Shown one piece after another: positions 10,929 through 29,013 of a stretch of 64,000 nucleotides of DNA. The stretch spans positions 1 through 64,000 of the forward strand of contig CANPUE010000004.1 in NCBI GenBank assembly GCA_947577185.1, in the 5' to 3' direction. Position 1 is the first letter of the stretch, and every line of letters starts with the position of its first letter. The notes below the pieces were generated by a model. It worked only from the letters and a program-made list of their open reading frames with translations. It searched no databases and was not told the origin of the DNA. The DNA comes from an uncultured Lachnospiraceae bacterium (GTDB taxonomy: Bacteria > Bacillota > Clostridia > Lachnospirales > Lachnospiraceae). The position numbers were made by a program, and so were the translations under genes.

Positions 10929-13412
10929 TTATACTTCCCCTGTTTTTATTACGATCTTTTTCGGCTGACAGCCCTGTGCCTCAAACCTGACGGTGATGTC
11001 CCCCGGTGTTACCCCCGCACGAATCACTGCCATCGCATATCCCTGCCAGGTTTTCCATGTCGTATCGTCATAGCTGCCGACTGCTCTCGGGTCCGCACTG
11101 CCGAATCCCTGCAGTGTTCCTGCGCCTTCCACGCTTACGGTAATCTCCTTTTCCAGATTCAGATTCTCAACACCGTTTTTGTCCGCTAAGCTCACAGTGA
11201 CAAACGCAAGATCCTCTCCGTCTGCTTTGAGCGTTTCTCCTTCCCATACAACCTCAAGTTCCACGTCACTGTCAGCTGTCTTTAGCTGGAAACGCCCGGT
11301 TTCCGCACCCTGCACATAGCTTACCGCCAGAAGTTCGCCCGGCTCATAAGTCATCTCATAGGATGCTGTAAAACCATTTGCTTCCCCGGCAGGCTTTCTT
11401 CCCAGAGAACGGCCGTTTAAGAACAGTTCTACCTCTTCCGCCTCACTGTATACATCCACATTCGCCGGTTTTCCTTCATATCCCGGCCATGTCCAGCTTG
11501 CGATATTATCTTTCAGCATCCATGCGGTCTGTGAATGCTGCATCCCATAGCGGTCCACACGTTCCACCGCAATATAGGGTTCCGTGCGCAGTCCATAGAC
11601 GATCTCCCGCAGATAGCTGATCGGCCTGCGGTATCCGATAATATCGATATCTCCGATATATGCCGTCCTGTCGGGATATACGCCGTTAAAATTCTGCGTG
11701 CCGTCGTAATAGAAAATACCGCATCCTGCTTCTCCCAGATAATCGTATCCGGTCCATGTAAAGTCGCCAAGTACATGATCATTGTTTTTCACAATATCCC
11801 ACAGCCGCACAATATCCGCAGGAAATGTCTCTGTTCCCAGAACGGTCTTATTCGGATGAAGCTCTTTCTCCAAAACATGCCGTCCTGTCAGGTAATTCAG
11901 CCCGGTAATATCTGACGCCAAACATGCTTCCTCGATCGTCTCCGTCATCAGCGGGTGGCAGGCAAAAGCGTCTGCTATGGGCCCTACCATCAGAGCCATC
12001 ATGCTGTTTAACAGACTCGCGCCTTCCTCGCGCTCCGTTTTTGCCCCGCCTGCTGTCATTCCGGTCTGCTGCGCGCTCATAATATCCTGGATCACTTTGC
12101 CCATCTTAGGCCCCAGTACCAGCATTCCATTGACCGCATTCGTCGTATAGCGGTATGGATCCAGCGCATGAATCCGATTGCAGAGCGCACGATTGATCTG
12201 CGCGCCTCTGGCGGTTCCCATATCCGGGATTTCATTGCCGGTAGAATATAAGATCACGCTTGGATGATTATAATCTTTCTTTACCATTCTCTCTGTTTCC
12301 GCATCCATACGATCCAGGAAATGCAGAGCAAAATCATTGGCATTTTTATGGTTTGTCCACATGTCGCACAATTCATCCATGACAAGCATTCCCATCCTGT
12401 CACATGCATCCAGCATCGCTTTGCTCATTGGGTGGTGTGCACTTCGTATGCTGTTAAAACCGGCTTCCTTCATCTGGCGGCAGCGTCTCTCTTCTGCCTT
12501 TTCCAGCGTTGCAGCTCCGATCATGCCGTTATCATGGTGAATACAGGTCCCGCGCAGTTTCACCTGCTGCCCGTTTATGCGGAGGCCATGCTGTGCATCC
12601 AGTTCCAGCCTGCGTATCCCGAAGTGCTCCCGCGTCTCATCTAAAAGCTCCTCTCCCGCATAAAGCCTGACGATACAGTCATATAACTGCGGCGTGTCCG
12701 GGCTCCACAGTGCGGGTTTCTTCAGCGCAATCTTCTGGCAGACCTCTTCCTGCGCCTCCTGGAACATCGTCACGCTGATGCTGTCCTTCCCTGCCGTCTG
12801 TCCCGCAAAGGATATTACCGTCTCTACCGTGATCTTTTCCTTTTTTCTGGTGAGGTTCTTTATGTCTGTGCGCACTTCCACGACCGCACTGTCCGCAGAA
12901 ATCTCTGGTGTCGTGATGCGCACACCGTCAGCCGGGATATGAATCCTCGCACCGACGAGCAGATTGACATTCCGGTAGATGCCGCTTCCCGAATACCAGC
13001 GGCTGTTTTTCTCTGCCGCATTATCTGCAATCACGCGTATTTCATTTTCTGTCCCATAATTTAAATATTTGTCCAATACAACGTAAAAATTTGAATACCC
13101 GTACAGGTTGCTCTGCGCGAGTTCTCCATTGATGTAGACCATAGCTGTGGCATAAACACCCTCAAATTCCAGAATAACTGTCTTTTCCTGCCATTCCTGC
13201 GGCACATCGATCTTTTTCAGATAAGTATATAACCCGCCGGGCCAATACCCGGTCTGTGTCCCGTTTGCAGTATCAGGCGTTCTCTCTTCATGCACCATGG
13301 CGTCATGCGGCAGATCGACCGTTTCAAACTGGGGGCCCCCCATGAAGGAAGACATCAGGGAAGCGCTTCCCTTTGCAAACTGCCAGTTACGATTTAATTT
13401 CTCCCGAATCAT
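10929..13412 (-). CDS. Glycoside hydrolase family 2 (beta-galactosidase-type)
   Basis: Hydrolyses beta-linked sugars (galactosides, or possibly glucuronides or mannosides). The 827-residue protein has the GH2 order: an N-terminal sugar-binding jelly roll (DLPHDAMVHE; SRWYSGSGIYRNV near residue 145), an immunoglobulin-like domain, and a TIM barrel with the acid/base motif YSTGNEIPD (about residue 385) and a nucleophile in GTETFPA. C-terminal Ig-like/Big domains follow (about 640-827). No signal peptide, so cytoplasmic. RBS GAGAGGAG precedes 13412. Divergent from the AraC regulator and linked to a sugar symporter and GH3 gene, it belongs to a glycoside-use locus. The exact substrate is not readable. 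Confidence 0.9.
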   Translation of the reverse strand: MIREKLNRNWQFAKGSASLMSSFMGGPQFETVDLPHDAMVHEERTPDTANGTQTGYWPGGLYTYLKKIDVPQEWQEKTVILEFEGVYATAMVYINGELAQSNLYGYSNFYVVLDKYLNYGTENEIRVIADNAAEKNSRWYSGSGIYRNVNLLVGARIHIPADGVRITTPEISADSAVVEVRTDIKNLTRKKEKITVETVISFAGQTAGKDSISVTMFQEAQEEVCQKIALKKPALWSPDTPQLYDCIVRLYAGEELLDETREHFGIRRLELDAQHGLRINGQQVKLRGTCIHHDNGMIGAATLEKAEERRCRQMKEAGFNSIRSAHHPMSKAMLDACDRMGMLVMDELCDMWTNHKNANDFALHFLDRMDAETERMVKKDYNHPSVILYSTGNEIPDMGTARGAQINRALCNRIHALDPYRYTTNAVNGMLVLGPKMGKVIQDIMSAQQTGMTAGGAKTEREEGASLLNSMMALMVGPIADAFACHPLMTETIEEACLASDITGLNYLTGRHVLEKELHPNKTVLGTETFPADIVRLWDIVKNNDHVLGDFTWTGYDYLGEAGCGIFYYDGTQNFNGVYPDRTAYIGDIDIIGYRRPISYLREIVYGLRTEPYIAVERVDRYGMQHSQTAWMLKDNIASWTWPGYEGKPANVDVYSEAEEVELFLNGRSLGRKPAGEANGFTASYEMTYEPGELLAVSYVQGAETGRFQLKTADSDVELEVVWEGETLKADGEDLAFVTVSLADKNGVENLNLEKEITVSVEGAGTLQGFGSADPRAVGSYDDTTWKTWQGYAMAVIRAGVTPGDITVRFEAQGCQPKKIVIKTGEV

Positions 13413-13524
13413 TCTTTTTCTCCTCTCTGTTGTTTCAATCTTTATTTTCTTTTATGGGCATTCGTGATATACTATAGAAGTATCTTAATTTAATAATGAT
13501 TATAAATACAGCATGTCAGACACG

Positions 13525-13573
13525 CAATAGCAGAAACCAACTATTGGATACCCTGCTGTATCCATATTCAACC
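13525..13573. promoter_or_regulatory. Candidate operator between GH2 and the AraC regulator
   Basis: Two inverted repeats lie in the divergent intergenic region: CAATAG (13525-13530) with CTATTG (13541-13546), and TGGATAC (13545-13551) with GTATCCA (13558-13564). The second continues into gctgtatccatattcaacc (13555-13573), which recurs with one mismatch at 16301-16319 upstream of the symporter gene. The shared element suggests a common binding site, probably for the AraC-family regulator. Confidence 0.45.
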
Positions 13574-13598
13574 AGTGTGTAAAAGAAGAAAATTCCCC

Positions 13599-14747
13599 AT
13601 GAACAATCGAAATGATCTGAATTCCCCGGAGTTCATAACCGGTGAGGGCACTGCCGCCGATCACAGAAGTCCGGAGCAGTTCTTTTCCCCGAAAATGCTG
13701 CAGTCTATATGCAGTGTCTCGAATCCTCTGACCATCAGCCGGGATCTGTCACTTTATAGTATCCAGACGCCTTTTATGATCATGTTAGAGACCTGCCGGG
13801 AAGCGGAAGGGATCTGTAATATCTTCCAGTTTACGCAGCATTCCTATCATTCCGCACAGCTGCAGAAAACGGTCGTTGACTTTACGGCAGAGCGGCCTCT
13901 GCACCGCCATTCCTGTATCGAAATCATGTATGTTCTCCAGGGCAGTGTCACCAATCGTGTTGAGAATCACATTTTCACCTATACGGCCGGTGACTGCTGT
14001 ATCATGAACAAAAATATCCGCCACTCGGAAAATTTCACCGGGGATTTTCAGGCTGTCTTTCTCATGCTCAGAGATGATTTCATCGCACAGCTTCTTTCCG
14101 AGTACTATGAAATGACTTCCATCAATCGGGAATCAAACGACGCCAATCTCGTCCTGCAATTATTTCAGGACAGCAAAAACCAGTCTCTGCAGTTTGATAA
14201 AGTGTACCTCGACTGTTTTCCTGTCATTCCGGCTGAAGAAATTTTAGAGATCACATCCCCGCTGTTTAATTCGATCCTGCAGGAAATTGTTCATTTACAG
14301 CCTGGTTCCCTCTTCTATATCAAAGGCGCTTTCTCCAGACTTTTGCAGATCATGACGGATCCGGAGCTGTTCAGCGTGAACCGTATCCACTCTGAATCCG
14401 ATAATCAGGAGTATCTGTTCAGCAAGATCACCCATATCATGAAGACAAGCCACGGACGCTGCACACGGGAGGAATTGTCGTCACAGTTACACTACAATGG
14501 GGAGTATCTGAACCGGATCATCAAAAAGTATACCGGCAGGACGCTCCTCGAATACGGCCAGTCCTTCTACCTCGATGAAGCAAGAATCCTGCTCTCCAGC
14601 ACAGATAAGAGCATCACCTCTATTATCGAGGAACTGGGATTTTCCAACCGAAGCCATTTTTACCGCCTCTTTGCCAAAGCGTACGGCCAGACGCCTCTCG
14701 ATTACCGCAGGCAGTTCCGTGCCGTTTCCTCAGAAGAAAAAGGCTGA
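13599..14747 (+). CDS. AraC-family transcriptional regulator
   Basis: A two-domain regulator of 382 residues. The N-terminal cupin-like sensing domain (about residues 95-180) contains the conserved HRHSCIEIMYVLQGSV and TAGDCCIMN segments. The C-terminal double helix-turn-helix (about 285-375) ends with SSTDKSITSIIEELGFSNRSHFYRLFAKAYGQTPLDYR, a strong family signature. It is divergent from GH2 and convergent with the symporter gene, so it most likely controls sugar-use genes here. A GTG at 13575 in frame is an alternative start; neither start has a strong ribosome-binding site. Confidence 0.9.
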   Translation: MNNRNDLNSPEFITGEGTAADHRSPEQFFSPKMLQSICSVSNPLTISRDLSLYSIQTPFMIMLETCREAEGICNIFQFTQHSYHSAQLQKTVVDFTAERPLHRHSCIEIMYVLQGSVTNRVENHIFTYTAGDCCIMNKNIRHSENFTGDFQAVFLMLRDDFIAQLLSEYYEMTSINRESNDANLVLQLFQDSKNQSLQFDKVYLDCFPVIPAEEILEITSPLFNSILQEIVHLQPGSLFYIKGAFSRLLQIMTDPELFSVNRIHSESDNQEYLFSKITHIMKTSHGRCTREELSSQLHYNGEYLNRIIKKYTGRTLLEYGQSFYLDEARILLSSTDKSITSIIEELGFSNRSHFYRLFAKAYGQTPLDYRRQFRAVSSEEKG

Positions 14748-16327: not shown

Positions 16328-18409
16328 TTACAGATTGACCACTGTCTTAACAAGATCTTCCTGCGCCGCACTGGAACCGACATAAATGGAATATTCCATG
16401 TTTTCCAGCTGCCACTCACGGTAAACCGGATTGTACCATTTCAGTTTTTCAACCGGCGTTACAATCTCTGCTTCCTTCTCTTCTCCCGCTTTCAGGCTGA
16501 CGCGCGTGAATCCGCGAAGCTGCTTCACCGGTCTGTCCACTGCAGAATTTTCAAAACCGACATAGAGCTGTACTACCTCGTCCCCATCTACGCTTCCCGT
16601 ATTCTTTACTTTCGCTGTCACTTTCAGGACATCTCCGTCTACGCTTGCTTTCGGGTCAGTGATTTCAAAGGTTGTGTAACTTAATCCAAAGCCGTACGGC
16701 ACCAGAGGTTTCACACCGTTTTTCTCCAGACGGGTGTATCCATGATAATATTCATAATACTGATCCGTCGCTTCCCAGTCTACATGCGGAAGGTCTTCTT
16801 CTGCATAAGGAACGACATACGGAAGTTTTCCGGAAGGATTGACATCTCCATATATGATCTCAGCCAGTGCCGTGCCGCCTTCCATTCCGGGATAATATGC
16901 CATGATCACAGAATTTACACAATCGTACCATTCTGTCATCATGATCATGTTGCCGCCTACCAGAACGACCGTTGACATGCTGTTCACCGGACCAGCCTGT
17001 CTGATCAGTTCTATGTCTTCCGGGTGGAGTCCCAGACTCTTCTTGCGGTCGCCGCCCATAGAACCTGTATAGTTCTCTACTTCGCTCTCTGAAACAAATT
17101 CTCCCTCATCATCATGATCATATCCTACGACGAAGATCACTGCATCCGCCTCTGCCGCAAGTTTCTTCGCGCTCTCGATATCAGCGCCGTCATGGAACAT
17201 CACTTCACAGCCGGGATTTGCCTTCTCAATGCCTTCTTTTGGCGTCACAACATATGGCGGACGCACCCAGCTTGAGCCGTGGTCACCGATAACCGCCGTA
17301 TCCGCAAGTTTGCCGATCAGTGCGATCTTCTTAACCTCGCTCTTTTTTAACGGAAGCACATTCTCATTCTTGATCAGGGTAATTCCCTTCTCTGCCGCCT
17401 CTTTCGCCACGGCAATGTGCTCTGCGCATCCTACTACGGACATATCATATTCTTTGTGATCTTTGTCAAACGCAAGGATCGTCCGCACGATGCGGAGTGC
17501 CGCCTCATCAATATGTGCTTCCGGCACAAAACCATCCTGCACCGCTTTCACGAGATGTTCCCCAAAGAACTGCGTCCACATCATCTCCATATCCTGACCG
17601 CCATTGGCTGCTTCCACTGTATCCCTGACGCCCCAGCAGAAATCTGACATGACAAACCCGTCAAAATCCCATTCTTTCTTCAATACCTGTCGTAACAGAT
17701 AGTTATGATGTCCGCAGTGTACGCCGTTATAGCGGTTATAAGAGCTCATGATGCTCGCGGCGCCCGCATCCACACAGTCTTTAAAATGCGGCAGATATAC
17801 TTCCTGCTCTGTCCGCTGATCACAGGTCACACTGCATTTGAAACGTGCGTTTTCCATATCGTTAAACGCGTAATGTTTCACACAGGCCATAATATCTTCT
17901 TCCTGAACGCCCCTGACCAGCGCGGCGCCCATCTGTCCAACCTGATAGGTCTCCTCCCCGTAAGTCTCCTGACTGCGTCCCCAGCCCGGGTTATAAGGAA
18001 GATTGATGCACACGCCGGCAAAAAGATTGCCTCCATAAGCCCGCACCTCTTTGCCGATGCAGCGCCCGATCTTCTCTTCCAGCGCCGTGTCAAAAGACGC
18101 GCCTCTTGCCATGGAAACCGGAAAACAGGTCGACTTCCAGCTCCCGCATACAACACCGCGCGGGCCGTCCGCAAACAGCATCGGCGGCAGATTAAATTCT
18201 TCCAGACCGCCTGCCGCATAAGGTGTCACATTGTAATGATTGTCTTCGCTGTTCATCTCCTCAGCCATTTTCTTCATGGTCTCCGGCGTCATCCTGATCA
18301 TATCCATGTTGCCGCTCATCAGCCACACCTTCTGCTCCAATGTCAGCTGATCCACGATTTTGCGCGCCTCATCCGTCATGGAAAGACGATATTCCTTCGT
18401 TGCTCTCAT
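16328..18409 (-). CDS. Glycoside hydrolase family 3 (beta-glucosidase/xylosidase type)
   Basis: Releases terminal beta-linked glucose or xylose from oligosaccharides. The 693-residue protein shows the GH3 N-terminal barrel with FADGPRGV, the KHYAFNDMENAR motif and the nucleophile region GFVMSDFCWGVRDT (about residue 250). The alpha/beta sandwich (about 340-560, with VVGYDHDDEGE) and a C-terminal fibronectin-III-like domain (about 600-690, PVKQLRGFTRV) follow. No signal peptide, so cytoplasmic. The start at 18409 has AAAGGAG eight bases upstream; the longer frame to 18466 runs toward the operator. It is expressed from a promoter bearing a LacI-type operator. Confidence 0.93.
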   Translation of the reverse strand: MRATKEYRLSMTDEARKIVDQLTLEQKVWLMSGNMDMIRMTPETMKKMAEEMNSEDNHYNVTPYAAGGLEEFNLPPMLFADGPRGVVCGSWKSTCFPVSMARGASFDTALEEKIGRCIGKEVRAYGGNLFAGVCINLPYNPGWGRSQETYGEETYQVGQMGAALVRGVQEEDIMACVKHYAFNDMENARFKCSVTCDQRTEQEVYLPHFKDCVDAGAASIMSSYNRYNGVHCGHHNYLLRQVLKKEWDFDGFVMSDFCWGVRDTVEAANGGQDMEMMWTQFFGEHLVKAVQDGFVPEAHIDEAALRIVRTILAFDKDHKEYDMSVVGCAEHIAVAKEAAEKGITLIKNENVLPLKKSEVKKIALIGKLADTAVIGDHGSSWVRPPYVVTPKEGIEKANPGCEVMFHDGADIESAKKLAAEADAVIFVVGYDHDDEGEFVSESEVENYTGSMGGDRKKSLGLHPEDIELIRQAGPVNSMSTVVLVGGNMIMMTEWYDCVNSVIMAYYPGMEGGTALAEIIYGDVNPSGKLPYVVPYAEEDLPHVDWEATDQYYEYYHGYTRLEKNGVKPLVPYGFGLSYTTFEITDPKASVDGDVLKVTAKVKNTGSVDGDEVVQLYVGFENSAVDRPVKQLRGFTRVSLKAGEEKEAEIVTPVEKLKWYNPVYREWQLENMEYSIYVGSSAAQEDLVKTVVNL

Positions 18410-18474
18410 AATTCCTGCTCCTTTCTGAACCGATCCGGCTGTCTGCCGGATCATGTTGGCAATCACTCTGCGTC

Positions 18475-18498
18475 ATTACCGTGTACGTTAACGGTAAT
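18475..18498 (-). promoter_or_regulatory. LacI-type operator over the GH3 transcription start
   Basis: ATTACCGT (18475-18482) and ACGGTAAT (18491-18498) form an 8-bp inverted repeat around an 8-base centre containing CGTTA-like bases. It lies four bases downstream of the -10 element, the classic place for a repressor block. The neighbouring LacI-family gene is the likely source of the repressor. Confidence 0.65.
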
Positions 18499-18501
18499 TT
18501 C

Positions 18502-18537
18502 ATTATAAAAGCAGATTGGCAAAAATGTCAATCTGCT
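18502..18537 (-). promoter_or_regulatory. GH3 promoter overlapping a terminator-like hairpin
   Basis: On the minus strand TTGACA (18531-18526), an 18-base spacer and TATAAT (18507-18502) form a near-consensus promoter. The same DNA holds AGCAGATTG (minus, 18537-18529) and its partner CAATCTGCT (18518-18510) followed by TTTTAT, a hairpin that could end the upstream LacI transcript. One short segment may thus serve both as terminator and promoter. Confidence 0.65.
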
Positions 18538-18611
18538 TCTTGTGTAGGCACTGTTTTTCGGCATAATGTACAACAAACTCTGTCTCCGTGAACCGTTTGC
18601 GCTCCTGCCGC

Positions 18612-19643
18612 CTAGATATTTTGTGCAATATGTATACTCAGATTCGTATAGCACATCCGTTCTTCCGGAACTGTCCCATACGCAAGATATTGGAAAAGAA
18701 TCTCCAGCGGCAGCTGTCCCTGTTTTTCCGGTTCCTGACACACCGTAGCGGAAATGATTCCCTGTCTGATCATCTCTTCCTGTCCTTTCACAAGATCGTT
18801 TGTGATGATCCGCACCTGGTGTCTGCTGTCTGCTGCCGCAATCACGCGGCAGATTTCATAGTCTCTGGGGTTTACCACATAGACGATATTCACATCGGGA
18901 AACTTCCGAAACATTTCCCGCACAGAGTTCTCATTCTGTTCCCTGCTCCGCTTAATAGAACGGATATCCAAAATCTTCATTTCCGGATACCTTTCTTCCG
19001 CTTCCAGGAAGAACCCTTTCGCACGTTCTCTATAGCTGGAAATCATTTCAAACCCTTCCGAATAGATACAGACCTGCGCCCGCTCTCCTCCGGCAAGCGC
19101 ACTGAGACCTGCCGCCAGTCTCCCCGCCTTCCGGTAATCACAGCCCACATAGGCAAGAAATTCCCGCCCCGGAATATAAGTATTGTAAAATACGACCGGG
19201 ATTTTCATCTGCTCCGCTGCCTCCAGATAACTCTTTACTTTAGACGAATCGATTCCCATCAAAATAATGCCGTCCTGCTGCGAAAGCATGTTACAGTACT
19301 TCTCTCTCTCAAAGAAAAGCGTATCTTCATCTCCGGTGATCTGATAAAAGTTCACCTGGACGCCGTACTGCGCCAGTTCTTTTGCCTTCCTGTGCGCGGC
19401 ATCCGTAATATCATGAAAAAAAGGATGGTTCTTTGCATCCGGCAGGAAAAAACTGATTTTCAGCTTTTTCTTCATCACTGCAAGTCCCTGTGCCGCCTGG
19501 TTTGGACGGTAATTAAGTTCCTGCATGACCGCTTCTATCCGCTGTCTTGTCTGTTCGTTGACCATTCCCCTGTTATGCAGTACACGGTCAACCGTTCCGA
19601 TCGATACCCCCGCCTTTTGGGCAATCTCTTTGATCGTCGCCAT
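18612..19643 (-). CDS. LacI-family transcriptional regulator
   Basis: DNA-binding regulator of 343 residues. The N-terminal helix-turn-helix (ATIKEIAQKAGVSIGTVDRVLHNRG, with the hinge region NYRPNQAAQGLA) is followed by a periplasmic-binding-protein-like effector domain (about 65-343). The GTVDRVLHNR variant is the type often found with a sugar-binding core of the ribose-binding fold. AAGGAG lies eight bases before the ATG at 19643. It is encoded directly upstream of GH3, in the same direction, and probably represses GH3 and the symporter until a sugar binds. Confidence 0.92.
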   Translation of the reverse strand: MATIKEIAQKAGVSIGTVDRVLHNRGMVNEQTRQRIEAVMQELNYRPNQAAQGLAVMKKKLKISFFLPDAKNHPFFHDITDAAHRKAKELAQYGVQVNFYQITGDEDTLFFEREKYCNMLSQQDGIILMGIDSSKVKSYLEAAEQMKIPVVFYNTYIPGREFLAYVGCDYRKAGRLAAGLSALAGGERAQVCIYSEGFEMISSYRERAKGFFLEAEERYPEMKILDIRSIKRSREQNENSVREMFRKFPDVNIVYVVNPRDYEICRVIAAADSRHQVRIITNDLVKGQEEMIRQGIISATVCQEPEKQGQLPLEILFQYLAYGTVPEERMCYTNLSIHIAQNI

Positions 19644-25688: not shown

Positions 25689-26513
25689 ATGGAGATACGA
25701 AAACGAAAGGGAAAGCATGTGGGAAGATTGATAGTAACGGAACAGCAATATCAGGAAGATTTACAGCGTTTAAGAGGTTTACGACCAATCGATGATGATT
25801 TCATGCGTTGTCTTTTTAAAGACAATATTCCACTGGCTGAATTTGTGTTGCGCATTATCACAGATAAACCAGATTTAATTATTACTGATTGTGAAACACA
25901 GAAGGATATGAAAAGACTGGCTGGGGCACGTTCTATCTGTTTGGACGCATATGGAACAGATTCAGTTGGAAAAAAATACGATTTGGAAGTCCAGAGGCAG
26001 GACAAGGGCGCAGACCCACACAGGGCAAGGTATCATTCAAGTGTAATGGATATAGAGAATCTCCATTCAGGTCAGGAATTTAAAGAATTGCCAGACACAT
26101 ATACAATCTTTATCATTGAAAAAGATTTTTATGGTCAGGGTAAAGCAGTTTATCCGATTGAGCGAATCAACCTTGCAACGGGTAAATCTTTTGAAGATGG
26201 GGAGCATATTCTTTATGTGAATGGTGAATATCGTGGAGAATCCGATATAGGAAAACTCATGCACGATTTTAACTGTACCCAAGCGGCTGATATGAATTTT
26301 GAACTGATGGCAGAACGAACAAGATATTTGAAGGAAAACCCGAAAGGAGTTCAAGAAATGTGTAAAATGATGGAGGATATGAGAAAAGAATCTTTGAAAG
26401 AGGCTGCTAAAAGAATGTTGGCAGATGGAATGTTGACACTTGAAAAAATTGCGGAATATGCAGGACTTCCTCTTGACGAAGTGAAAAAATTGAAAGCAGA
26501 ACGGACAGCATAA
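25689..26513 (+). CDS. PD-(D/E)XK nuclease-family putative transposase (Rpn/PF12784-like)
   Basis: A 274-residue protein of the Rpn/PDDEXK putative-transposase family: conserved IDDDFMRCLFKDN near residue 36, ARSICLDAYGTDSVGKKYDLEVQRQDKG (nuclease core with Asp and E-x-Q), RARYHSSVMDIENLHSGQEFKELP, and a C-terminal helical tail (QEMCKMMEDMRKESLKEAAKRML). Members are single-strand nucleases linked to recombination and mobile DNA. An in-frame GTG at 25719 with AAAGGG upstream is a good alternative start. The gene is A+T-richer than ribU and tex and ends at a clear terminator. Whether it is active or mobile is not shown. Confidence 0.82.
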   Translation: MEIRKRKGKHVGRLIVTEQQYQEDLQRLRGLRPIDDDFMRCLFKDNIPLAEFVLRIITDKPDLIITDCETQKDMKRLAGARSICLDAYGTDSVGKKYDLEVQRQDKGADPHRARYHSSVMDIENLHSGQEFKELPDTYTIFIIEKDFYGQGKAVYPIERINLATGKSFEDGEHILYVNGEYRGESDIGKLMHDFNCTQAADMNFELMAERTRYLKENPKGVQEMCKMMEDMRKESLKEAAKRMLADGMLTLEKIAEYAGLPLDEVKKLKAERTA

Positions 26514-26688: not shown

Positions 26689-28794
26689 CTACAGAAACAG
26701 TTCATTCCTTTCTATTTTTTCTAATTCACTATCCTTTTTTATGTTAAGGTATGTAAAATCTGCCTTTTTTAATTCCGGAAGCACCTTTTGAATATCAGAT
26801 TGATACCAGATTGAGGCGTTTAAATTCGCGCCTCTTAAATCTGCCTGAATTAAATTTGAATTTAACAAAACTGCGTTTGATAAATCTGCAAAGACAAGTT
26901 TCGCTGATTGAAAATTGATATTTCTGAGATTGCATCCGCTTAAATTGGCCATTGTCATATCCGCCCCTTCCAGGCTGCTTTCAAAATCATAATCTAAATC
27001 CAGTCGGTCATCATTAGATTCAATGAAATAGGGCGATTTCGAATAATGCAAATAGATCTGTCTGAAATCTACCCCGTTTAGAGATGCCTCCCGTAAATCA
27101 GTATCAATCAGGATTGCCCCCGTCATATCAGCTCCCCGCAAATCCGCCCCTTTCAAAGCAGTCCAGCTTAACGATGCCATTCTCAAATTTGCTTCACGCA
27201 AATCAATTCCTTTCAAATCTGCGCCTTCCAGTTGTGCCGCTTCTAAATCGGCACCGCGAAAAACAGTATTTTCCGTATCGATATTGCGAAATCCGCATTT
27301 TCTTAAATTTACATTTAAAAAACGTATGTTTCGGAAACGAGCCCCAAAAAAGTCAGCTTCCTGTAAATGAGACATGACGAAATTTACATAGGCCAAACGC
27401 GAACCGGTAAAATCCGCTTTATCAAAAATACATCCCTCGAACCTACAATTTATTATGTTCATTCCAGAAAGATCAACTTCAGATAAAATGAGATACCTGA
27501 AATCTTTTGATTCTAATCTCATATGATTTTTCTGTAATATTTCCCGCAAATTATCAAAACTTTTTTCTTTTAGAAATAATTTCAGCATATCATATCCGCT
27601 GAAACCATTTGAAAAAATAAGCTTACGAAATTCTTCCTCTTTGAATGCTTTCCTGCACAAAAAAAATTCTAATATACTTTTATGTGCAAATTTGTAAAGT
27701 CCATTCGCATTTCTGTTAAGCAAAGACCGTGATTTCGCTTCTATACTCCGCAGATTAATATGATATTCTCTGCATAGATTCAAAATCTCTGCAACATCTA
27801 TATAGATCGTTTTATTCAGGTACATATACTCGGCTATTTTTTCTGAAAAAACATATAGCAGATTGTCGTCCAGTACTTCCCTTTCTATCCATTTTTTTAC
27901 CAATTGATCGTATATTTCATAAACAGTATCGTACTTTTTTTCACTATGATCAATCAAGTCATCCAAATACGATAACAGCATCGGCCTAACGACCAATTTG
28001 GGACAATTTGCTATTAAATTTTGGGCACGCTCAAACTTTTCTTTTTGAAAAAAATAGATATATTTCTTTTCCAAATATTTTAAAATTTCACGATCATTAA
28101 ACGGTGAAATATAATATTTTTCAAATTCTATATTCTTTTTTCCAACACCAAATTTTATATTTCCAGTGATCTTAGGCTCTTTTTCACGATTTGGGAAAAA
28201 CTGCGTTCTGCAAGTCACTACGATCTTATAAAACAATTCTGTTTCATTACAAAGATCCTGCATACGCTTTTTATAGTCTTCCATTGCACAGGAATCTTCG
28301 TCAAAGCTGTCCAATAATAATATCGTTTTCCGCTTATGTTTGATATTTCTAATATTCTCACATGTTTTGCTGTCTGATAAAGGCAGTAAAACGATACGAT
28401 ACTTCTTAAATAGTTTTCTTTTATATCGAAAATATAATTTTAACAAAAAAGTGGTTTTCCCCATTCCGGAATCTGCCAGTATGATAAAGTATTGTGACTC
28501 TGAATTTTTAAATGCTTTCATGAAAAAGAGAATTAATGGAAAACTGGTATCGTGATCAATGTTTTCCTGATCACATGGATCGATATTAACTGCCCTTGTA
28601 GGAACAAAATATCTCATGGAGCGCCTGGTCTGTCTGTCCAATCCAAATGTTTTTAAGCAATGATATCTGTTCCTCAGACGGATCAACAGATTAATGATTA
28701 CACCAAATATAACAACTATAACACTTAATGCTGCGTCAATATCAGAAATATTTGTCCAGATCCAGGAAGAAAAATTTTGAAGCCGCTCTATCAT
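26689..28794 (-). CDS. Membrane-anchored NACHT-type NTPase with C-terminal pentapeptide repeats
   Basis: A 701-residue STAND protein. Order: one transmembrane helix (about residues 22-40), NTPase domain with Walker A ADSGMGKT (107-114), Walker B ILLLDSFDE (158-166, the D-x-x-D-E form of NACHT proteins) and sensor VVTCRTQFF (192-200), then helical and winged-helix parts with the NACHT-associated FAHKSILEFFLCRKAF (369-384). Pentapeptide repeats (A(D/N)LxG) fill about 439-579 and 608-663, split by a nonrepeat insertion with YFIESNDDRLDLDYD. Bacterial NACHT proteins include anti-phage sensors, so a defence role is inferred, not shown. ATGs at 28809 and 28794 are both usable. The gene is markedly A+T-rich, a sign of transfer. 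Confidence 0.85.
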   Translation of the reverse strand: MIERLQNFSSWIWTNISDIDAALSVIVVIFGVIINLLIRLRNRYHCLKTFGLDRQTRRSMRYFVPTRAVNIDPCDQENIDHDTSFPLILFFMKAFKNSESQYFIILADSGMGKTTFLLKLYFRYKRKLFKKYRIVLLPLSDSKTCENIRNIKHKRKTILLLDSFDEDSCAMEDYKKRMQDLCNETELFYKIVVTCRTQFFPNREKEPKITGNIKFGVGKKNIEFEKYYISPFNDREILKYLEKKYIYFFQKEKFERAQNLIANCPKLVVRPMLLSYLDDLIDHSEKKYDTVYEIYDQLVKKWIEREVLDDNLLYVFSEKIAEYMYLNKTIYIDVAEILNLCREYHINLRSIEAKSRSLLNRNANGLYKFAHKSILEFFLCRKAFKEEEFRKLIFSNGFSGYDMLKLFLKEKSFDNLREILQKNHMRLESKDFRYLILSEVDLSGMNIINCRFEGCIFDKADFTGSRLAYVNFVMSHLQEADFFGARFRNIRFLNVNLRKCGFRNIDTENTVFRGADLEAAQLEGADLKGIDLREANLRMASLSWTALKGADLRGADMTGAILIDTDLREASLNGVDFRQIYLHYSKSPYFIESNDDRLDLDYDFESSLEGADMTMANLSGCNLRNINFQSAKLVFADLSNAVLLNSNLIQADLRGANLNASIWYQSDIQKVLPELKKADFTYLNIKKDSELEKIERNELFL

Positions 28795-28843
28795 AATTAC
28801 CCCTTCCATATGATTCACCTTCCATATGATACATTTGATAAAA

Positions 28844-28872
28844 ATTATAATCGTACTGTCTGCATATTTCAA
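28844..28872 (-). promoter_or_regulatory. Promoter of the NACHT gene
   Basis: Minus strand TTGAAA (28872-28867), 17-base spacer, TATAAT (28849-28844). A start near 28837 rules out translation from the most upstream ATG (28875) and leaves a leader of about 30-45 bases. The gene appears to be its own transcription unit. The stretch 28873-29013 before tex shows no other feature. Confidence 0.75.
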
Positions 28873-29013
28873 CACGAAGCGCCATTATAAATCGAAAAAA
28901 TAAGCCCATCATCAATCCCGTTTCTATGACTGATAATGGACTTAATTTCAGATGTTACAATATAAAATATTACGTTTTCAGAGACAGAAATTCCACCCGT
29001 CCCCATAAACTGA

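Follow-up and report, generated by a model that had tools for sequence, protein, structure and literature searches.

What can a single protein do that carries a membrane helix at one end, a pentapeptide-repeat rod at the other and a STAND-type nucleoside triphosphatase (NTPase) in between? The question is raised by one gene in a 64,000-nucleotide stretch of DNA from an uncultured Lachnospiraceae bacterium (assembly GCA_947577185.1, contig CANPUE010000004.1, positions 1 to 64,000), called the window in its whole length. Judged from its sequence, the encoded receptor most likely serves this gut-type bacterium as an intracellular alarm against invaders such as phages. That it is a STAND receptor with a C-terminal sensor is very probable. 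A self-contained, membrane-anchored NLR-like receptor is the best explanation in terms of a single protein, and one towards which we lean; an antiviral role is likewise slightly favoured. By analogy, and more tentatively, its membrane helices may be the effector rather than an anchor only.

The gene is real. Its frame is open on the minus strand from a GTG at 28875 to the stop at 26689, and the coding sequence begins at an ATG at 28794, giving a product of 701 amino acids. An earlier note, written from the letters of this DNA, had used an upstream start. That start overlaps the −35 box at 28872, and one stretch cannot be both; the ATG at 28794, with the ribosome-binding sequence GGAAGGGG a few bases 5′ of it, fits better. 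The near-consensus promoter described in the same note does match at 11 of 12 positions, but the region holds 6 promoter-like sites against a shuffle mean of 10.7, so the match alone is no evidence. The reported A+T richness is borne out by a GC fraction of 0.34 in the gene, compared with 0.476 in the window and 0.509 in the neighbouring gene tex.

The architecture of the receptor is well supported. From the N to the C terminus, a short helix is followed by the membrane helix, a linker, the NTPase core, an arm, a further helix and the pentapeptide β-helix (bounds in Table 1). The single transmembrane helix proposed earlier stands, with a hydropathy of 2.63 over residues 22-40, which lie within a long helix of the model (19-50). 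The pentapeptide Pfam profile matches at E 1.6e-41 (139.8 bits, cut-off 20.2). Repeat centres are hydrophobic in 96% of cases in block 1 (n = 28) and 92% in block 2 (n = 13), a level found in 0 of 10,000 shuffles for each. With at least eight contiguous repeats and a quadrilateral β-helix in the predicted model, whose fold matches include HetL, QnrB1 and AlbG, the rod falls in the pentapeptide-repeat class. Two blocks are indeed present; what had been described as an acidic insertion between them is a low-confidence loop (567-602) with a net charge of merely −3. The full-length model, from which all the fold evidence comes, has a mean pLDDT of 83.7 and a pTM of 0.76, and a separate model of residues 1-425 reaches 89.6 and 0.84.

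The central module belongs to the STAND/NACHT class: it combines a P-loop NTPase, a NACHT-like fold, Walker A and B motifs, a sensor arginine region and a winged-helix arm. The motifs ADSGMGKT (Walker A), LLLDSFDE (Walker B), TCRTQFF and FAHKSILEFF are all present as listed earlier, and a 78-row alignment of the family shows no variation at GMGK, LD..DE, R196, P271, Y295, W302, R305, E306, F369 or H371. Foldseek matches in the PDB include NLRC4 (E 3.4e-9), NLRP7 (1.0e-7), the NLRP3 NACHT domain (1.7e-7), NLRP1 (1.1e-6) and a wheat resistosome (3.3e-6); the best fold matches (best 50 of 114 at E 0.001) are pentapeptide proteins and NLRs. TM-scores of the NLR matches are low (0.2-0.4) because of length and arrangement, superposition being limited to parts of the proteins. 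By sequence, no solved structure matches the NTPase module below E 0.11, the weak ones being Rab P-loops. Among profiles, nSTAND3 leads (E 3.3e-5, 24.1 bits against a cut-off of 27.2), followed by nSTAND5 (E 1.4e-4) and NACHT (E 0.02). The idea of a NACHT-type NTPase therefore survives as regards the fold, whereas the best profile is nSTAND3 rather than NACHT. A plain NACHT label was rejected at 15.1 of the 26.7 bits of the curated cut-off (PF05729), and the protein also lies below the curated cut-off of nSTAND3 (PF20720). Across 73 members, Pfam at E 0.001 finds nSTAND3 in 50, nSTAND5 in 20 and NACHT in 15.

An alignment query against one genome per species returned 228 relatives, of which the best 80 were kept; by record titles they come from Lachnospiraceae, Bacteroidota, Chlorobi, Spirochaetes, Acidobacteria, Proteobacteria, KSB1 and others. 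The 78-row alignment joins 75 of these 80 to the window protein and to the loci that we label L004 and L007, with L043, L056, L066, L081 and L082 left out for open or broken frames. A 73-row alignment omits L007, L034, L035, L047 and L080 (eligibility or size), and a 68-row alignment omits L022, L045, L054, L079 and L085. A membrane helix rises over the hydropathy threshold in 57 of the 78 members; among 1560 control segments, cut from these proteins at and beyond the P-loop, 11 do so. In 54 of the 57, the residues that follow the helix carry the more positive net charge, and with the basic side there the NTPase and C terminus should be cytosolic. The distance from helix to P-loop is mostly 78-95 residues, with 69-72 in the window protein (69), L004, L009 and L010, and 110 in L036. 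The membrane helix before the P-loop, the linker and the NTPase motifs of the window protein are common to L009-L088. Separately, the public annotation of the Paraburkholderia sabiae relative starts 3′ of an in-frame membrane helix (L007:7785-8001), and its N terminus was probably missed.

On this chassis, the C terminus is exchanged. L004, for example, is 36% identical to the window protein over residues 17-414 and differs in its C terminus. At E 0.001, Pfam assigns the C-termini of the 73 members to FGE-sulfatase/C-lectin (24), LRR_4 (16), pentapeptide (7), Lcl_C (3) and Fib_succ_major (1), and the C-terminal part of a whole-family profile matches a Treponema denticola variable protein (E 5.8e-10) and formylglycine-generating enzymes (FGE). 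For the tree, simple text patterns sorted the 78 members into FGE (28), other (27), leucine-rich repeat (LRR; 13), pentapeptide (7) and Lcl_C (3); the FGE label is doubtful for L065 at least, and L018, L020 and L022, which resemble LRR members by eye, were classed as other. In a tree from NTPase columns alone, these five labels need 15 changes, compared with a shuffled mean of 40.1. The window protein clusters with five Lachnospiraceae pentapeptide proteins. L071 (Bryobacterales) also has pentapeptides and lies far off, and the starred branches force two changes. A second tree left out L004, L050 and L054 (long branches) and added L134, from a viral contig and itself a long branch. There, descent of all eight pentapeptide members from a single source is rejected (p-AU 2.3e-6), and a grouping of L071 with L134 is not (p 0.295). 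With a single origin rejected, the rod has become attached to the chassis at least twice.

Some relatives appear to mutate this end of the gene. The last 450 bases of each gene were compared with the rest of the locus for a near-copy whose mismatches fall, to at least 90%, on template adenines; 78 of the 80 loci were covered, the other two having too little flank. Adenine-specific variable and template repeats lie at the 3′ end in 11 of the 78 (L036, L044, L046, L051, L060, L061, L073, L075, L079, L080, L085), with adenine mismatches of, for example, 21/21 and 20/20, and in none of the 215 segments of these genes that served as controls. Ten of the 11 are FGE and one is Lcl_C (L051), and a motif search found a reverse-transcriptase-like frame in the DNA of seven of these loci. 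These 11 loci are apparent diversity-generating retroelements (DGRs) aimed at the receptor family, and a signature at the 3′ end marks that end as the recognition part. The signature occurs in 0 of 13 LRR loci; some LRR and pentapeptide contigs are short. Divergence has a similar focus. The window protein and L009 are 68 and 74% identical in NTPase and arm and 38% in the C-terminal end, and the ratio of nonsynonymous to synonymous substitution (dN/dS) between L009 and L010 is 0.067 in the core, 0.259 in the C-terminal end and 0.173 in the first 56 residues. The suggestion that the C terminus is the recogniser thus fits its exchange among relatives, its faster divergence than the NTPase and its retroelement diversification in 11 of 78 loci, none of them pentapeptide.

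A sequence of events can be proposed for the receptor. The NTPase and rod would face the cytosol, where the rod or the loop might bind an invader component or a host protein altered by infection; a phage protein is our first guess for the trigger. Binding would, as in the STAND class, free a monomer held by nucleotide, and NTP would drive its oligomerisation into a ring. The membrane helices so clustered could depolarise or permeabilise the membrane, with the infected cell arrested or killed, a step suggested by their position and by the precedent of Cam1, discussed below. We infer both the phage trigger and the pore.

Several observations weigh against a self-contained immune receptor. The nSTAND3, nSTAND5 and NACHT profiles all remain under their curated cut-offs for this protein, and no PADLOC family matches it at E 0.001, with AriA at 0.0028 over the P-loop. 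The retroelement signature is present in 0 of 6 loci of pentapeptide relatives, the tested set being one without the window gene. No dN/dS ratio between L009 and L010 exceeds 1, which indicates relaxed or locally varied selection, with positive selection unproven, and the N-terminal 56 residues outpace the core as well. By eye, the window neighbours are ordinary: tex, an ECF transporter component, a two-component system and an Rpn-type nuclease. A PADLOC scan of the two nearest frames per side at family loci (237 frames of 100-1500 amino acids, taken with a crude picker), run without a far-gene control, neither shows nor excludes defence-island enrichment. Finally, 21 of the 78 members lie under the helix threshold, several of them borderline, so that the family can do without the helix. 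Seven of the 13 LRR members are in this group, along with nine FGE, three 'other' and one each of Lcl_C and pentapeptide (L071).

These sub-threshold members favour a rival account in which the membrane helix is an anchor only, holding the protein where phage DNA enters or beside a membrane partner, and a recruited second protein kills the cell. So does the relative L086 (Variovorax), a single case with a caspase-domain gene directly 3′ (12040-13770; PADLOC caspase E 1e-20, PDC-S65 E 3e-44). Yet nothing but reverse transcriptases recurs beside the family among the matches listed. They are the most frequent PADLOC match, in 4 of 131 and 5 of 106 frames (best 25 of 102 and 25 of 118 families), and are followed in the second set by the two-member families PDC-S01 and DpdF (best 25 of 118 families). 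The window gene, moreover, stands alone under its own promoter-like site. We regard the anchor account as rather unlikely.

More improbable still is a physiological role outside defence, the protein being a STAND-type regulator or signalling component. STAND proteins do include transcriptional regulators, according to PMC7159879, and the ordinary chromosomal neighbours in the window would suit one. Against this, the gene is rare and patchy. Of 397 genomes from the bacterium's taxonomic family, 4 match the profile of the receptor family, as does 1 of 398 from its phylum; its own genome is counted each time, and no match is seen in the two other genomes of the genus in the family set. The gene is therefore accessory. 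The exchange of C-termini and the retroelement diversification seen in relatives also speak against a regulator, and no DNA-binding output domain is recognised among the receptor's Pfam matches.

A pentapeptide protein that protects gyrase or mimics DNA as Qnr and MfpA do, fused by chance to an NTPase, is scarcely credible: sequence and fold searches do bring up Qnr, MfpA and AlbG, but the Qnr model is matched at 62.7 of 240 bits, far under its cut-off, the rod has a net charge of just −3.6 per 100 residues (+10 in L011), and the same switch carries unrelated C-termini in relatives. Qnr and MfpA rods are strongly acidic. DNA-shape mimicry, which had been put forward as the rod's way of sensing, is dropped because the charge is weak and its sign is not conserved.

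The setting of the gene is consistent with an accessory and probably mobile receptor. The gene 3′ of tex differs in both relatives read (G060 and G250, with tex 84 and 81% identical). The window module has three matches among 72,556 plasmid records, only one of them close, and viral contigs hold at least one relative. On a mobilizable plasmid, a BREX-1 operon is followed, one gene 3′, by a relative; another relative, L134 on an IMG/VR contig, has an integrase-like gene at a distance of 430 bases and, at ∼3 kb, AbiLi (E 3e-96) and AbiLii (E 3e-23). Each is a single case. L134 is 31% identical over 609 aligned columns, with no membrane helix evident by eye. Its surroundings (L134:4136-12638), with integrase-like, STAND-pentapeptide, FtsZ-like (by eye) and AbiLii/AbiLi genes, look like the cargo of an integrative element. 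Phage cargo was considered and rejected, two family queries having found no match in 50,697 phage records. Neighbours at 16 loci are mostly ordinary, and a Pfam scan of 106 neighbours yields mainly singletons.

Two further observations concern the neighbourhood. In Parablautia muri (L010), a 65%-identical relative stands beside LacI-type and beta-glucosidase genes (L010:1628-7163) that resemble window positions 16328-19643, 7-10 kb from the receptor; the neighbourhood is alike and the exact site different. In the window, the gene for the Rpn-type recombination-promoting nuclease (25689-26513; 52.3 bits against a cut-off of 52.1) is convergent with the receptor gene. Pairing of the two was rejected, given seven such matches in six frames genome-wide and none, by eye, at 16 family loci.

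The earlier note took this exact combination of parts not to be a described defence system. Fusion of STAND and pentapeptide parts, taken by itself, is not unusual. The window's own genome, 67% complete, has eight pentapeptide stretches at E 1e-6, all in three proteins, each of which is a STAND/NACHT fusion; the other two are at G000:C21 (L001) and at ∼122-125 kb of G000:C4 (L002). Pentapeptide matches at E 1e-8 occur in 19 of 150 genomes of the taxonomic family, and the 34 pentapeptide loci read include at least four genomes, besides the window's own, with a STAND-type Walker B in the same frame. The rarer feature is the membrane-anchored chassis. No title or abstract found describes a membrane-helix STAND-pentapeptide receptor, which is weak evidence, with subscription papers mostly outside the search. 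Domain databases surely list such architectures.

Table 1. Coordinates of the receptor gene, its protein parts and the upstream site in the window
Feature	Position	Strand	Remark
Promoter-like site, 11/12 matches, spacer 17	28844..28872	-	Not statistically special; A+T-rich stretch
Receptor gene, 701 aa: membrane helix, STAND NTPase, winged-helix arm, pentapeptide beta-helix	26689..28794	-	
Membrane helix, residues 22-40, basic residues after; C-terminal side predicted cytosolic	28675..28731	-	
NTPase core, residues 96-256; Walker A 108-114, Walker B 159-166, TCRTQFF 194-200	28027..28509	-	
Helical and winged-helix-like arm, residues 257-385; invariant P271, Y295, W302, R305, E306, F369, H371	27640..28026	-	
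Pentapeptide block 1, residues 423-566, 28 repeat centres	27097..27528	-	
Inter-block loop, residues 567-602, low model confidence, net charge -3; first residues still pentapeptide-like	26989..27096	-	
Pentapeptide block 2, residues 603-666, 13 repeat centres	26797..26988	-	

In a broader and more speculative reading, which we hold to be possible, the window protein would be one member of a widespread bacterial NLR family, unnamed as far as our searches go. Helix and STAND module would form a pore-forming chassis that takes any recognition surface, with sensing, switching and killing in one gene. Leucine-rich repeats, C-lectins mutated by retroelements into a hypervariable receptor, and the pentapeptide rod of gut Lachnospiraceae would be its plug-in surfaces. 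If this holds, bacteria would use the switch known from animals and plants, where it is joined to leucine-rich repeats, in a membrane receptor encoded by one gene, whose detectors can be exchanged and at times hypermutate. The family would then be a natural experiment on where in a bacterial NLR the invader is read, and on whether clustering of a single membrane helix suffices to stop the cell. Pentapeptide rods on NTPases would be ligand binders in the cytosol, not DNA mimics.

Comparison with known systems places the receptor among, and apart from, several of them. Avs5, which acts against jumbo phages, has an nSTAND3 domain (PMC12931631), the best profile here and one found in 50 of 73 members at E 0.001, and like the receptor it ends in a C-terminal repeat sensor. 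Where the receptor has a membrane helix and a pentapeptide rod, Avs5 carries a SIR2-like domain at its N terminus and repeats of the TPR/Sel1-like or another helical type. The window protein is under the nSTAND3 cut-off, and its Pfam matches up to E 10 include no SIR2 family. The bNACHT proteins are likewise tripartite, with a central NACHT and a C-terminal sensor, and bacterial NACHT-LRR proteins have been reported (PMC12169576). Their effectors, however, are a DNase or have no discernible domain, the receptor falls below the NACHT cut-off, and 'transmembrane' and 'pentapeptide' are absent from the text of PMC12169576.

Closer to the family's diversified members are the CLec-STAND proteins of Thiohalocapsa PB-PSB1 and clade 5D, putative antigen sensors diversified by DGRs (PMC10907252). 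They share a STAND NTPase with a retroelement-diversified C-terminal FGE/C-lectin, and 11 members of our family are of that sort. For the NACHT-CLec targets of DGR 3, the topologies predicted are membrane-related, with cytoplasmic and periplasmic placement (PMC10907252), so that the family's membrane-linked CLec members, compared here by description, may already be recorded there. The pentapeptide and LRR loci covered here, in contrast, are without a retroelement signature, and 'pentapeptide' and 'leucine' do not occur in the text of PMC10907252.

For the membrane step, the nearest analogue is Cam1, which has one N-terminal helix, a short linker and a cytosolic ligand domain (PMC10808066), and for which a tetrameric pore was predicted and depolarisation measured (PMC10808066). 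Cam1 differs in its CARF domain and cyclic-nucleotide signal, and the comparison is one of analogy, with no homology claimed. The two NACHT-pentapeptide paralogues of the window's own genome share a STAND NTPase and C-terminal pentapeptides with the receptor. Unlike it, they exceed the NACHT cut-off, have long N-terminal regions and, by eye, no evident membrane helix; the family profile does not recover them, its one match in that genome being a single protein. By sequence, then, the receptor has an NLR- or Avs-like layout, from which it differs in its predicted N-terminal membrane helix and in a pentapeptide rod as the putative exchangeable sensor.

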